Shown piece by piece: positions 6,009 to 43,718 of a stretch of 64,000 bases of DNA; position 1 is the first letter of the stretch, and every line of letters begins with the position of its first letter. The notes below the pieces were generated by a model. That model was not told the DNA's origin. It searched no databases and saw only the letters and a list, made by a program, of their open reading frames with translations. This DNA comes from Acinetobacter sp. LoGeW2-3. Lineage in GTDB: Bacteria; Pseudomonadota; Gammaproteobacteria; Pseudomonadales; Moraxellaceae. A program made the position numbers and the translations under genes. The stretch lies in assembly GCF_002688565.1 (NCBI RefSeq), contig NZ_CP024011.1, positions 1,116,001-1,180,000 of the forward strand, in the 5' to 3' direction.

Positions 6009-6024
6009 TGTTCCACGTGAAACA
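6009..6024. other. parS-like (ParB-binding) site, one mismatch
   Basis: TGTTCCACGTGAAACA differs from the consensus TGTTTCACGTGAAACA at one position. It begins 8 bases after the stop of the efflux gene. ParB sites normally cluster near the replication origin. Confidence 0.6.
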
Positions 6025-18129: not shown

Positions 18130-19251
18130 ATGGATAAAACCATCGGTATTTTTGGTGGCGGTCAGCTGGGTCGTATGATGGCGCAAGCGGCATTGCCTTT
18201 AAACATTCAATGTACTTTTTTTGAAGCGAGTACAGACTGTCCTTCGGCCGCTTTGGGTCCAGTATTTTCGACCAAAGCTGAAAATGGTCTGCAAGACTTT
18301 ATCAATAGTGCAGATGTGTTCAGCCTTGAGTTTGAAAACACGCCATTGGCAGATGTCGATGTTTTGACAAAAAACAAAGATCTGCATCCACCACGTCAGG
18401 CTTTAGCGATTGCACAGCATCGTCTGTCTGAAAAGGCTCTGTTTGATGAGCTTGAGATTCCAGTTGCACCTTATAAAGCCGTGACTTCACTGGAAAGCTT
18501 AACAGCAGCTGTTGCCGAGCTTGGTTTACCAATCGTATTGAAAACCTCTCGTGGCGGTTATGACGGTAAAGGACAATTTGTTCTACGTTCAGCAGATCAG
18601 ATTGATCAGGCTTGGGCTGAATTGGGTCCTGCAGGCGAACTGATCGCAGAAAGCTTTGTAACTTTCTCACGTGAAGTATCTATTATTGCGGTACGTGGCC
18701 AAAATGGTGATGTAAAAACTTGGCCATTGGCTGAAAACCATCATCACAATGGCATTCTGTCGCACTCGATTGTTCCCGCACCTAACAGCACGGATCTGCA
18801 GCCAGTCGCGCAAGACTACATCACTCGCCTGCTCAATCACCTGAACTATGTTGGTGTATTAACGCTTGAGCTGTTTGTGACTGACAAAGGCTTATATGCG
18901 AATGAGATGGCACCACGTGTACATAACTCAGGTCACTGGTCAATTGAAGGTGCGATCTGTTCACAGTTTGAAAACCATGTTCGCGCCGTAGCTGGCTTGC
19001 CATTGGGTTCAACTGCTGTAGTACGTCCAACGGTGATGGTCAACATCATCGGTCAGCATCCAAAATCTGAAGATGTTTTGGCTTTAGAAGGCGCGCATCT
19101 GCATCTGTATAACAAGTCAGAACGTGAAGGCCGCAAAATTGGTCACATCACTTTGATGCCAAATGACAGCGCACAATTGACTACGCTTTGTCGTCAACTG
19201 GCGAAGATTTTGCCAAATCCATTAGCATTGAGCGAAGATATGACCATCTAA
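18130..19251 (+). CDS. purK: N5-carboxyaminoimidazole ribonucleotide synthase
   Basis: A 373-residue ATP-grasp enzyme that makes N5-CAIR from AIR, ATP and bicarbonate, the step before PurE. It starts with IGIFGGGQLGRMM, has the ATP-grasp text PIVLKTSRGGYDGKGQF (about residue 135-152), then EVSIIAVRGQNG and the metal-binding ANEMAPRVHNSGHWSIEG. It forms the purEK operon and is followed by an intrinsic terminator. Confidence 0.94.
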   Translation: MDKTIGIFGGGQLGRMMAQAALPLNIQCTFFEASTDCPSAALGPVFSTKAENGLQDFINSADVFSLEFENTPLADVDVLTKNKDLHPPRQALAIAQHRLSEKALFDELEIPVAPYKAVTSLESLTAAVAELGLPIVLKTSRGGYDGKGQFVLRSADQIDQAWAELGPAGELIAESFVTFSREVSIIAVRGQNGDVKTWPLAENHHHNGILSHSIVPAPNSTDLQPVAQDYITRLLNHLNYVGVLTLELFVTDKGLYANEMAPRVHNSGHWSIEGAICSQFENHVRAVAGLPLGSTAVVRPTVMVNIIGQHPKSEDVLALEGAHLHLYNKSEREGRKIGHITLMPNDSAQLTTLCRQLAKILPNPLALSEDMTI

Positions 19252-19267
19252 GCTTTAACTTGCTGAT

Positions 19268-19302
19268 AAAAAAAGCGATCACACCCGTGGTCGCTTTTTT
19301 AT
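19268..19302 (+). terminator. terminator of purEK
   Basis: AAAAGCGATCAC-ACCC-GTGGTCGCTTTTTT, 17 bases past the purK stop. Confidence 0.85.
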
Positions 19303-19698
19303 TTGTCTGGATTCAGGCATGATTGCGCCTCTTTGAAAATGCCACACCATTTATCGGATTATTTTCAAAATCAATTGCTTATAAAACGTACAATCATTTA
19401 TAGATAATTGATGAAAATTTAATCTTTTGCTGCATTATTTCATCTATCCAGATTTAAATTTAAATGAATTTAAAACATGTAAAGTGGACTTTGAATTTAA
19501 ATTCATAAGAATAAATTCAAATTTAAATACGGTTATTTGAATTCAAATCGGGCTTTTGAATTTAAATTCAAAACAATAAATTCAAAACTAGAGAAATGAA
19601 TTCAAAGTTTTGAATTTAAAAATAACACTCATATTTTATAAATGAATTTAAAAGCTAAGTTGCTGAATACCTCTATTTCTGTGGTTAAACACTTATAG

Positions 19699-19707
19699 TT
19701 ATCCACA
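19699..19707 (+). promoter_or_regulatory. DnaA box 1 (TTATCCACA)
   Basis: Perfect match to the high-affinity DnaA box, within the AT-rich repeat cluster. Confidence 0.7.
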
Positions 19708-19793
19708 CTGCTACTTTTGAATTTAAAAGCCTTATTGTGCAGGTTTTGAATTTAAATTTAAAAAGTAGGTTTAAATTTGAATTTAAAACATCT

Positions 19794-19802
19794 TGTGGAT
19801 AA
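19794..19802 (-). promoter_or_regulatory. DnaA box 2 (TTATCCACA, reverse)
   Basis: TGTGGATAA on the plus strand, a perfect box in reverse orientation, 86 bases after box 1. Confidence 0.7.
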
Positions 19803-19882
19803 GTTTTTAAATTCAAAACTTACAAATAAATTTAAAAATGAAGAAAATATGAATTTAAATTTTACGTATTCACGCTTTAATT

Positions 19883-19891
19883 TTATCCACA
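19883..19891 (+). promoter_or_regulatory. DnaA box 3 (TTATCCACA)
   Basis: Perfect box at the right edge of the cluster, 53 bases before the start of the lytic transglycosylase gene. Confidence 0.7.
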
Positions 19892-19943
19892 AGCTGATAA
19901 GGTGATTAGGAACATAATTCGAAATATAAGATTTAAGGGTCCT

Positions 19944-21233
19944 ATGCAACGGCTTGCACTTTTTCTTGGCTCAATCGTTTTGGCTGCCTCTCAGGCAAAT
20001 GCTGAACTGATTATTAATGGACAGCGTGTAAACGCGTCAGAATTGCCTTCGAGTCCGAGCGTCTATACGCCGAGTTCCAGCTCATTTCAAAATTGTCTGG
20101 CTGGGTTGAAATCCCAGGCATTGGCTAAGGGTGTCTATACAGCGTCTTATGATCGCTATACGCAAAATCTCACGCCTGATTATTCCGTGATTGAAAAACT
20201 CAACTATCAGCCTGAATTTTCAACGCCGATTTGGGATTATCTGTCTGGTCTGGTGGATGAAGAACGGGTGCAGCAGGGCCGTCAGAAATTACAGCAGCAT
20301 GGTGATGTGTTAAATCGCGTCAGCGCTGCTTATGGTATTCCAGCGGAAACGGTGGTGGCAGTCTGGGGTGTGGAAAGTAATTATGGGGATATTTCCGGTA
20401 AATATCCTTTATTACAGGCGCTTGGTACTTTGAGCTGTGAAGGTCGTCGCCAAAGCTATTTCCGTGGTGAGTTCTTTACCACTATGAAACTGTTGCAGCG
20501 CGGTGATGTCTATGAAAATCAACTGAAAGGTTCATGGGCAGGGGCATTTGGTCATACTCAGTTTATGCCATCAACCTATGATGAACTAGCGGTCGATTTT
20601 GATGGGGATGGTCGTCGTGATCTGGTGGGCAGTGTTCCGGATGCATTAGCTTCTACCGCCAATTTCCTGAAAAAACGCGGCTGGCAAACGGGTCAGCCGT
20701 GGGGCTTTGAAGTCAAACTGCCTTCTGGTGTTTCAACCGCTGGTGAAAGCCGTACCAATAAAAAGCCGTTAAGTCACTGGATGGAACGTGGTTTGGTGCG
20801 TGCTGATGGTTCGTCTTTACTGCAAGCTAATCTGTCTGAATCTAGTCAAGCAGGTTTAATTGCCCCGGCAGGGCAAAACGGCCCAGTATTCTTAGTATTT
20901 AAAAATTTTGATGCCATTTATAGTTATAACGCTGCGGAAAGTTATGCCTTGGCGATTGCCCATTTATCCGACCGTTTACAAGGCAAGGGTAATTTTCTGA
21001 CTGCGTGGCCAACTGAGGATCCAGGAACTTCACGTGCCGAACGTCGTGAAATTCAGCAATTCTTGCTGTCCAAAGACTATGATATTGGTGAAGCGGATGG
21101 TTTGATTGGGGATAAAACTCGTCAAGCGATCCAACAGGAACAGATGCGTCTGGGACTAAATCCAACCGGTCGAGCGGGGCAGCAGATTTTAAAAGCATTC
21201 CGTGCTGAAAAAGCGCGGAATATGCTACGCTAA
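19944..21233 (+). CDS. lytic murein transglycosylase (MltB family)
   Basis: A 429-residue secreted enzyme that cleaves peptidoglycan to 1,6-anhydro-MurNAc products. It has a signal peptide (MQRLALFLGSIVLAASQANA), an MltB-type SLT domain with catalytic Glu in VWGVESNYGD and the WAGAFGHTQFMPSTYDELAVDFDGDG signature, and a C-terminal peptidoglycan-binding domain (REIQQFLLSKDYDIGEADGLIGDKTRQAI). No lipobox, so it is a soluble MltB-like protein. The start at 19944 follows AAGGG; an upstream in-frame codon at 19902 precedes the signal peptide. AnmK, encoded convergently, processes the anhydro-MurNAc that this enzyme releases. Confidence 0.88.
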   Translation: MQRLALFLGSIVLAASQANAELIINGQRVNASELPSSPSVYTPSSSSFQNCLAGLKSQALAKGVYTASYDRYTQNLTPDYSVIEKLNYQPEFSTPIWDYLSGLVDEERVQQGRQKLQQHGDVLNRVSAAYGIPAETVVAVWGVESNYGDISGKYPLLQALGTLSCEGRRQSYFRGEFFTTMKLLQRGDVYENQLKGSWAGAFGHTQFMPSTYDELAVDFDGDGRRDLVGSVPDALASTANFLKKRGWQTGQPWGFEVKLPSGVSTAGESRTNKKPLSHWMERGLVRADGSSLLQANLSESSQAGLIAPAGQNGPVFLVFKNFDAIYSYNAAESYALAIAHLSDRLQGKGNFLTAWPTEDPGTSRAERREIQQFLLSKDYDIGEADGLIGDKTRQAIQQEQMRLGLNPTGRAGQQILKAFRAEKARNMLR

Positions 21234-25301: not shown

Positions 25302-26840
<1,539 letters not shown>

Positions 26841-42413: not shown

Positions 42414-43718
42414 TTAAGCTGTTTTTTCAATTCGGCAATAGAAGAAGCCATCGCCTTGACCTGCTTTGGGTAGTAGCTGACGACCGTGAATCTGCTCAAT
42501 GCCCCAATCGGCTTCGATCTTGATTTCTTTAGCATCCACATGGGTGTTAAAGAATTCAACCATCTGCTGTTCGTTTTCTGCTTTCAGAATTGAACAGGTG
42601 ATGTAAAGCAACGTGCCGCCAACTTTCAGCTGTTGCCACATATTTTCCAGAATCTGCTTTTGCAGTTCGACAGTCTGGACAATATCAGTTGATTGACGCA
42701 GCAGGCGAATATCTGGATGACGACGCATCACACCAATGGCAGAGCAGGGTGCATCCAGCACGATACAGTCCGGTTGTTCCGCTGCCTGCCAGGTGATCGC
42801 ATCAGCAGCAACGATTTCAATATTTTCGCCTTCAAGCAGCAGACGCTCCAGATTTTCCTGCACGCGCAGCAGACGCTTCGCGTCCTGATCCAGAGCAATC
42901 AGTTTTTTAGGGCTGTATTTTTCCAGAATATGCGCCGTCTTACCACCCGGCGCCGCACATGCATCGACCACATATTTGTTATTCAAATCTTGCAATAAAG
43001 TCGCACAAAGCTGAGCATGTTCATCCTGTACCGAAAAACCGCCGACATCGAAGCCAGGCAGATGTGGAACATGGATGCCATCATCCAGCACGATGCCAAC
43101 TTTGGAAATACTGCAGGCATGTGCAGCGATGTCATGCTCATCCAGAATTTCCAGATATTCATCACGGCTAACCTGACGTTCATTTACACGTAAGGTTAAT
43201 GGAGCCACCTGTTTCAGTTCAGTGCTTAGATCCACGAGCTGTTCAGGCCAGTCTTTCTTCAGGCGCTTGTAGAGCCAGCTTGGTAAACCATGTGCCTGTT
43301 TTAATGCAGTCTGAAATTCAGGTGTTTCACGTGAAACACGGCGCAGGATGGCATTGACTACACCACTTAAAGCCTGATAACCCAGCTGTTTTACCGCAGT
43401 TACGGTTTCAGAAATTGCAGCATGAGGAGCGATACGAGTTTCTAGCAACTGGTACAGACCAACATACAGGCAGGTTTCTACCGTATCGTTATTAATCGGT
43501 TTTACCAGTAGCGGTAAAGTTACGCTTTTTAGCGCATACCATTGACGCAGGGTACCAAGAACCAGTTCATGGAAAAGGGCGCGGTCACGCTCTGCGACTT
43601 TGCCTAAATGTTGTGGCAAAACACTGGCAAGTGATTGCCCTTGCTGTACCGCGAGCAGGGTGCGAATCACCTGGGCACGTAAATTCAGGTGTGATGTGCC
43701 GGCTTCGTAATGACTCAT
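42414..43718 (-). CDS. rsmB: 16S rRNA (cytosine967-C5)-methyltransferase
   Basis: A 434-residue RsmB (Sun/Fmu). It has an N-terminal NusB-like RNA-binding domain (about 10-140) and a C-terminal SAM-dependent methylase with VDACAAPGGKTAHILE, the catalytic DAPCSAIGVMRRHPD, and YITCSILKAENEQQ with the second catalytic Cys. Its start overlaps the stop of fmt by four bases. A perfect parS site lies within its coding sequence at 43323-43338. Confidence 0.94.
   Translation of the reverse strand: MSHYEAGTSHLNLRAQVIRTLLAVQQGQSLASVLPQHLGKVAERDRALFHELVLGTLRQWYALKSVTLPLLVKPINNDTVETCLYVGLYQLLETRIAPHAAISETVTAVKQLGYQALSGVVNAILRRVSRETPEFQTALKQAHGLPSWLYKRLKKDWPEQLVDLSTELKQVAPLTLRVNERQVSRDEYLEILDEHDIAAHACSISKVGIVLDDGIHVPHLPGFDVGGFSVQDEHAQLCATLLQDLNNKYVVDACAAPGGKTAHILEKYSPKKLIALDQDAKRLLRVQENLERLLLEGENIEIVAADAITWQAAEQPDCIVLDAPCSAIGVMRRHPDIRLLRQSTDIVQTVELQKQILENMWQQLKVGGTLLYITCSILKAENEQQMVEFFNTHVDAKEIKIEADWGIEQIHGRQLLPKAGQGDGFFYCRIEKTA
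43323..43338. other. perfect parS (ParB-binding) site inside rsmB
   Basis: TGTTTCACGTGAAACA, identical to the consensus 16-base palindrome bound by chromosomal ParB (Spo0J) proteins. Sites in coding sequence near the origin are normal for parS. Confidence 0.85.

Follow-up and report, generated by a model that had tools for sequence, protein, structure and literature searches.

A genus-wide array of AamA-type methylation words and DnaA boxes between purK and mltB, a candidate satellite of the replication origin in Acinetobacter

The window analysed here is a stretch of 64,000 bases (positions 1,116,001-1,180,000 of the 3.18-Mb contig C1) from the genome of Acinetobacter sp. LoGeW2-3, and coordinates are positions in the window unless a contig is named. 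Between purK and the gene for an mltB-type lytic transglycosylase lies an intergenic region of about 690 bases, whose G+C content is 25.5% over 19252-19941 and 21.9% at 19440-19891, compared with 44.5% for the window. The ATG at 19944 was chosen as the start of mltB; the earliest start in the table of open reading frames is a GTG at 19902. The region carries a repeated 12-base word, called here the AamA word after the methylase discussed below, and three DnaA boxes. The features are as follows.

18130-19251, plus strand: purK, left flank (open reading frame)
19252-19943, no strand: purK-mltB intergenic region, the satellite locus (delimited by the open reading frames)
19453-19464, no strand: AamA word TTTAAATTTAAA, exact match
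19490-19501, no strand: AamA word TTTGAATTTAAA, exact match, overlapping a one-mismatch word at 19496
19536-19547, no strand: AamA word TTTGAATTCAAA, exact match
19555-19572, no strand: 18-base palindrome TTTGAATTTAAATTCAAA, two exact 12-mers (19555 and 19561) overlapping by 6 bases
19609-19620, no strand: AamA word TTTGAATTTAAA, exact match
19699-19707, plus strand: perfect DnaA box TTATCCACA, exact match
19716-19727, no strand: AamA word TTTGAATTTAAA, exact match
19745-19762, no strand: two overlapping AamA words (19745 and 19751), exact matches
19776-19787, no strand: AamA word TTTGAATTTAAA, exact match
19794-19802, minus strand: perfect DnaA box TTATCCACA, exact match
19806-19817, no strand: AamA word TTTAAATTCAAA, exact match, 3 bases from a DnaA box
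19848-19859, no strand: one-mismatch word TATGAATTTAAA (motif search), which is motif VI of PMC10483419 as given in the available text
19496, 19516 and 19770 (starts): the remaining one-mismatch words
19883-19891, plus strand: perfect DnaA box TTATCCACA, exact match, 52 bases upstream of the chosen mltB ATG
19944-21233, plus strand: mltB-type lytic transglycosylase, right flank (PF13406 and TIGR02283)
43323-43338, no strand: perfect parS-like site TGTTTCACGTGAAACA (motif match)

The site TGTTTCACGTGAAACA was assigned by the parS consensus; a second perfect site lies 42.9 kb before the window start and a one-mismatch site at 6009. An rRNA operon begins at 25302. The first-pass annotation, made from the sequence of this DNA, had described an AT-rich repeat block with three perfect DnaA boxes between purK and the transglycosylase gene, an 18-base palindrome, an rRNA operon about 5 kb away and parS sites on either side, all of which were found again where it had placed them. 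It had also counted a dozen or more repeat words in both orientations, and this agrees with the 12 copies of GAATTTAAA on both strands of 19252-19941. In 500 dinucleotide shuffles of the region, GAATTTAAA occurred on average 0.15 times (maximum 2) and the DnaA box, present in three copies, 0.006 times (maximum 1); chance in AT-rich DNA was therefore rejected as the source of the repeats and boxes by these shuffle controls. An RNA element at the locus was likewise rejected, only rRNA and tRNA being matched in the window at Rfam's own thresholds.

The natural repeat unit is the 12-base palindrome TTTRAATTYAAA, with 11 exact and four one-mismatch copies in the purK-mltB region. The whole genome (3,357,734 bases) contains 29 exact copies, 11 of them in this region, as against nine matches to a reversed control pattern. 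This 12-mer was already in use in our analysis before a published methylome containing it was found. In SMRT sequencing of A. baumannii ATCC 17978, TTTRAATTYAAA was proposed as the target of the orphan adenine methylase AamA (Acinetobacter adenine methylase A, A1S_0222), and a deletion mutant had no methylated site of this motif (PMC10483419, available text). The first-pass annotation had considered an array for an unknown AT-binding protein, and the word does indeed have a ligand; however, that ligand is known, being the methylase AamA (PMC10483419, same text). Available parts of two other papers list TTTRAATTYAAA (PMC13227989) and report the related motifs TTTRAATTNA and TNTNAATTNAAA, with partial methylation in all the strains tested (PMC10287943). 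By analogy with A. baumannii, the AamA sites are probably methylated in strain LoGeW2-3 as well.

According to the available text of PMC10483419, the densest methylated sites in ATCC 17978 are in region 1 (29 and 28 sites in two runs) and in region 2, rnpA-dnaA (9 and 9), and TATGAATTCAAA occurs once in that chromosome, within region 1. In three A. baumannii strains, which are very large records in a plasmid collection, we counted 29, 25 and 29 sites in the purK-mltB region, with a single TATGAATTCAAA in each case; oriC has nine sites in all three. In view of these totals, region 1 is most probably the purK-mltB locus. It should be noted that TTTGAATTCAAA, which accounts for two sites in each of the A. 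baumannii strains counted, is absent from the paper's subtype table as available, and what matches is therefore the totals, not the individual sites. In A. nosocomialis and A. pittii there is a further cluster of words; in A. nosocomialis it lies inside an open reading frame resembling, by eye, a SAM-dependent methyltransferase, and region 12 of the paper adjoins smtA (PMC10483419, available text). Four records of the plasmid collection (NZ_CP064203.1, NZ_CP077849.1, NZ_CP104448.1 and CP040042.1) carry both oriC and purK and must therefore be chromosomes or parts of chromosomes.

The same text (PMC10483419) reports that the aamA mutant grows more slowly and has raised expression of a gene named mltA (1.6-fold) and of dnaA, rnpA and pitA (1.5- to 2.4-fold). 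Complementation returned the mltA level, but neither growth nor dnaA expression. Its authors read the sites as gene-regulation switches, and noted that one site precedes dnaA and might be linked to initiation.

The sole D12 methylase found in the LoGeW2-3 genome is a protein of 430 amino acids encoded between ribD and ribE, downstream of nrdR, in the order nrdR-ribD-methylase-ribE (gene names assigned by reading). It is 89.5% identical to a protein in the A. baumannii records, and nrdR is among the neighbours of the three methylase genes of ATCC 17978 (PMC10483419, available text). Judged by this identity and position, it is AamA, and the genome accordingly encodes the enzyme. A relative at 89-100% identity was present in 50/50 genomes, which represent 50 of the 80 purK loci described below. 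Among 299 Moraxellaceae genomes, a match to AamA of at least 80% identity was present in 125 of the 126 from Acinetobacter and in all four of a sister genus (g10), while other genera had relatives at no more than 56% identity, or none. Pairs of words within 30 bases followed the same distribution (122/126 Acinetobacter, 4/4 of the sister genus and 0/169 other Moraxellaceae, including genera g5 and g13, whose AamA relatives are at 47-56%), a co-occurrence that rests on essentially one clade; a reversed control pair was found in three of the 299 genomes, once each. In four Acinetobacter genomes with AamA (G099, G138, G250 and G340), no two words lie within 30 bases of each other. The methylase gene coordinates of G250 are those in the genome of locus L051, whose purK-mltB region has four wider-spaced words. 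The lone Acinetobacter genome without AamA (G349) was dropped as a case of true loss: a 3.1-kb ribD-aamA-ribE query was likewise unmatched there, although this search had no positive control and DNA divergence could account for it too.

The available text of PMC10483419 suggests a horizontal gain of AamA and its absence from some species, from which our count within the genus (125/126) differs. A deep horizontal origin may nevertheless be kept in mind, because relatives at 54-55% identity are named from Planctomycetes (among the 120 of 4448 matches listed). AamA as a phage or plasmid gene was rejected, its patterns having no match in the viral_contigs collection; the plasmid and phage collections yielded six close matches (89.5%), every one from Acinetobacter, and the three annotated ones show ribD under the match. 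Neither a relative of solved structure, searched by sequence, nor an NCBIfam family was found for AamA.

In this genome, dnaA occupies C1:1,094,932-1,096,314 (minus strand). Seven perfect DnaA boxes, the biggest group among the 40 listed, lie in the rpmH-dnaA region. Cumulative GC skew, computed over the 184 kb read, is lowest at 1098 kb, next to dnaA; the array is at 1135 kb. A further 14 samples of 20 kb each gave negative skew at 0.1-1.0 Mb, positive skew at 1.3-2.5 Mb and negative skew again at 2.8 and 3.0 Mb. Because the skew minimum and the seven-box group coincide there, the origin is most likely at rpmH-dnaA. The purK-mltB array shares with an origin a cluster of DnaA boxes with AT-rich repeats (three perfect boxes, compared with seven at rpmH-dnaA), but not the skew minimum. 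The proposal of the first-pass annotation that the array could be the chromosomal origin was therefore rejected. Its remark that dnaA does not adjoin the block was correct, dnaA and the standard oriC being outside the window, 39.3 kb from the array.

The origin-proximal position that it had suggested also holds in relatives: the array lies 17.6-25 kb from dnaA in 12/12 hand-picked relatives, and the figure for one A. baumannii strain is 19.4 kb. The larger distance here (39 kb compared with 17.6-25 kb in the 12 relatives) suggests inserted or rearranged DNA in the lineage of the window between dnaA and the array; the stretch in question runs from the window start to 17 kb, together with the preceding 19 kb.

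AamA words and DnaA boxes cluster side by side both in oriC and in the satellite. In 13/13 genomes (our own and the 12 hand-picked relatives), one to four exact words are found within 700 bases before dnaA, among four to seven perfect boxes. Methylase sites are thus clustered in oriC, as in the Dam/SeqA system, with a motif other than GATC. Their positions recur near -400, at -144 to -163 and, in 7/13 genomes, at -26 to -35. AamA-type sites (TNTNAATTNAAA), counted on both strands, number 44 in the 184 kb round the origin; 33 of them fall in three intergenic regions of 2.07 kb in total, namely purK-mltB (24), oriC (5) and a cluster beyond gyrB (4), and the three clusters together hold 15 of the 29 exact words of the genome. 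In A. cumulans, whose record begins at dnaA, all nine word pairs within 30 bases are at purK-mltB, oriC or the gyrB-side cluster; in four other genomes, the pairs at purK-mltB are 8/9, 10/11, 5/5 and 10/11.

The cluster beyond gyrB (C1:1089240-1089403, about 7 kb from oriC) has two exact and two near words and three perfect DnaA boxes. It is not general, exact words being present there in only four of the 13 genomes (our own, A. bouvetii, A. cumulans and Marseille-Q1618), and can therefore be regarded as a variable second satellite. Elsewhere in the genome, two words and two perfect DnaA boxes are found within 175 bases at C1:2011028-2011200, about 0.9 Mb from oriC. Four and three AamA words, with no perfect DnaA boxes among them, are found at C1:1496635-1497833 and 903173-903709, respectively. 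There are also inverted close pairs of perfect DnaA boxes at C1:496144-496169 and 695128-695153, and at C2:408-430 and 149721-149743 on the second contig.

The purK relatives in the 80 loci kept for comparison are all from named Acinetobacter, except one from a Moraxellaceae bacterium, and mltB is downstream of purK in 77 of them. The other three (L063, L081 and L099), in which the contig ends before mltB, were left out, giving 78 purK-mltB regions with that of the window. Each of the 78 contains 4-15 exact words, where Markov resampling gives an expectation of 0.03. Perfect DnaA boxes number 0-4 per region: at least one is present in 72/78, none in six, and two or fewer in 66. The first-pass annotation had named a lack of conserved boxes in relatives as grounds against its reading; instead, when the three A. 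baumannii strains are added, a box with at most one mismatch is present in 81/81 regions, so that the locus is, like datA, a conserved DnaA-box cluster outside oriC. The boxes are slightly nearer to the words than in random placement (49% as against 39% within 6 bases). Word spacings over the 78 regions, which are not independent loci, peak at 6, 14, 19-20, 25, 36-37 and 43-44 bases.

In alignments of seven clades, hand-picked and using 43 of the 81 regions, word identity was 0.84-0.96 compared with 0.55-0.79 for the sequence between in all seven, a comparison biased toward the words because they anchor the alignments; identity of the boxes was 0.98-1.0. The words were also more conserved than AT-rich non-word 12-mers in 7/7 clades, only slightly in one (0.844 compared with 0.821), and individual non-word 12-mers attained 0.97-1.0, DnaA boxes not having been excluded from the non-word set in either case.

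On these grounds we propose, as the probable reading and with moderate confidence, that the array is a genus-wide, AamA-marked, candidate DnaA-binding satellite of oriC, which would help to time initiation. DnaA binding at the array, like every step of replication timing set out here, is a prediction. At usual bacterial fork speeds, it would take forks leaving oriC about a minute to arrive at the satellite. Replication of the satellite would double its boxes, which would bind DnaA, and about two dozen adenine sites in the satellite would turn hemimethylated together with the words of oriC. Until AamA had remethylated both the satellite and oriC, DnaA would be drawn off, and oriC and the start region of dnaA would meanwhile be unfavourable for a new start. 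The array, having more sites than oriC, might prolong this refractory state, either because it competes for AamA or because it attracts a putative reader protein. SeqA was not detected: the genome has no PF03925 match, and among 14 control genomes E. coli alone matches.

A wider claim, which we advance only tentatively, as a possibility, is that Acinetobacter evolved its own methylation-timed control of replication, independent of Dam/SeqA, in which both oriC and a satellite at a distance of 18-39 kb would bear AamA marks. The timer keeping oriC closed would then be the period over which the satellite is remethylated after fork passage, acting through a putative reader or competition for AamA.

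The sites could instead serve methylation-sensitive control of transcription of mltB and, at oriC, of dnaA and rnpA, the AamA marks altering the binding of RNA polymerase or a regulator, with replication affected through the level of dnaA at most. The methylome's authors take a similar view (PMC10483419, available text); we consider it rather unlikely to be the main function. In 54/78 regions a word is placed 22-31 bases upstream of the inferred mltB start; one is found 26-35 bases upstream of the dnaA ATG in the 7/13 genomes mentioned above and at 33 bases in 3/3 A. baumannii strains, and the expression changes reported for the aamA mutant, with mltA restored on complementation, point in the same direction. 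However, it is not evident why one promoter should require 4-15 words together with conserved DnaA boxes, 24 of the 78 regions, that of the window included, have the array but no mltB-proximal word, and oriC is marked by the same words. Promoter control of mltB and dnaA may operate alongside the satellite function.

It is improbable, in our estimation, that the array is an element of nucleoid structure or segregation, recruiting a structural protein (of H-NS type, or for SMC/MukBEF loading) together with flanking parS, with methylation tuning the binding. Its high AT content, its steady distance to dnaA and the parS-like sites that flank it at no more than 63 kb would suit such a role, but the DnaA boxes and the sharing of words with oriC would be left unexplained, and the array is 13 and 23 kb away from the closest parS-like sites, allowing one mismatch.

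The first-pass annotation had also named a DnaA-titration site like datA. This stands in so far as the boxes are strongly conserved (98-100% identity in the seven clades, and the 81/81 regions with a box of at most one mismatch), but not as regards the repeat words, which are the AamA motif. A plain site of DnaA titration or DnaA-ATP hydrolysis, of the datA or B. subtilis cluster type, with the words neutral or mere AT-rich DNA, appears very improbable: each word is a specific 12-mer and is conserved, there are more words than perfect boxes, and two or fewer of the latter in most regions are few for titration. That the array is a chromosomal, second or ancestral origin is hardly credible, since its AT-rich repeats beside DnaA boxes are set against a skew minimum at 1098 kb and seven perfect boxes at rpmH-dnaA, a region whose boxes and words before dnaA are kept in 13/13 genomes.

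AamA, its motif, and a site upstream of dnaA with a possible tie to initiation were already known (PMC10483419, available text). New here is that the densest AamA sites are read as a satellite of oriC, and that the enzyme, motif and layout differ from those of known methylation-marked control of initiation. No description of the array as a genus-wide, DnaA-box-bearing satellite of oriC was found in the open-licence literature searched. Methylation sites once read as promoter switches are now tied to oriC through a defined satellite, which suggests why AamA is a core gene and why cells that lack it grow more slowly and express more dnaA. The locus would bear on how Acinetobacter, with no detectable SeqA, prevents re-initiation. 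If the satellite reading is true, the array and AamA would have evolved independently as an equivalent of Dam/SeqA and datA combined.

Regions 1 and 2 of the A. baumannii methylome resemble the array and oriC in the 12-mer and in the site totals (29 and 9). They differ in how they are read, as gene-regulation switches, and the main text, as available, contains neither 'oriC' nor 'purK' (PMC10483419). The Dam/SeqA system of E. coli likewise has an orphan adenine methylase and sites clustered in oriC and near dnaA (PMC4451416 and PMC13201069, available parts). There, however, the motif is GATC, whereas here it is a 12-base motif with 29 exact copies in the genome; the off-origin array of Acinetobacter has more sites than oriC, and its genome shows no SeqA (PF03925) match. 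With datA of E. coli and the DnaA-box clusters of B. subtilis (PMC4451416, available part), the array shares a cluster of DnaA boxes outside oriC. Unlike datA, which is more than 450 kb from oriC (same source), it lies 17.6-39 kb from dnaA and combines 0-4 perfect boxes with methylase words.

As with CcrM of Caulobacter, hemimethylation could serve as a clock for fork passage. The sites of CcrM are spread over the whole Caulobacter genome, whereas more than half of the exact AamA words (15/29) are gathered at three clusters in the origin region.
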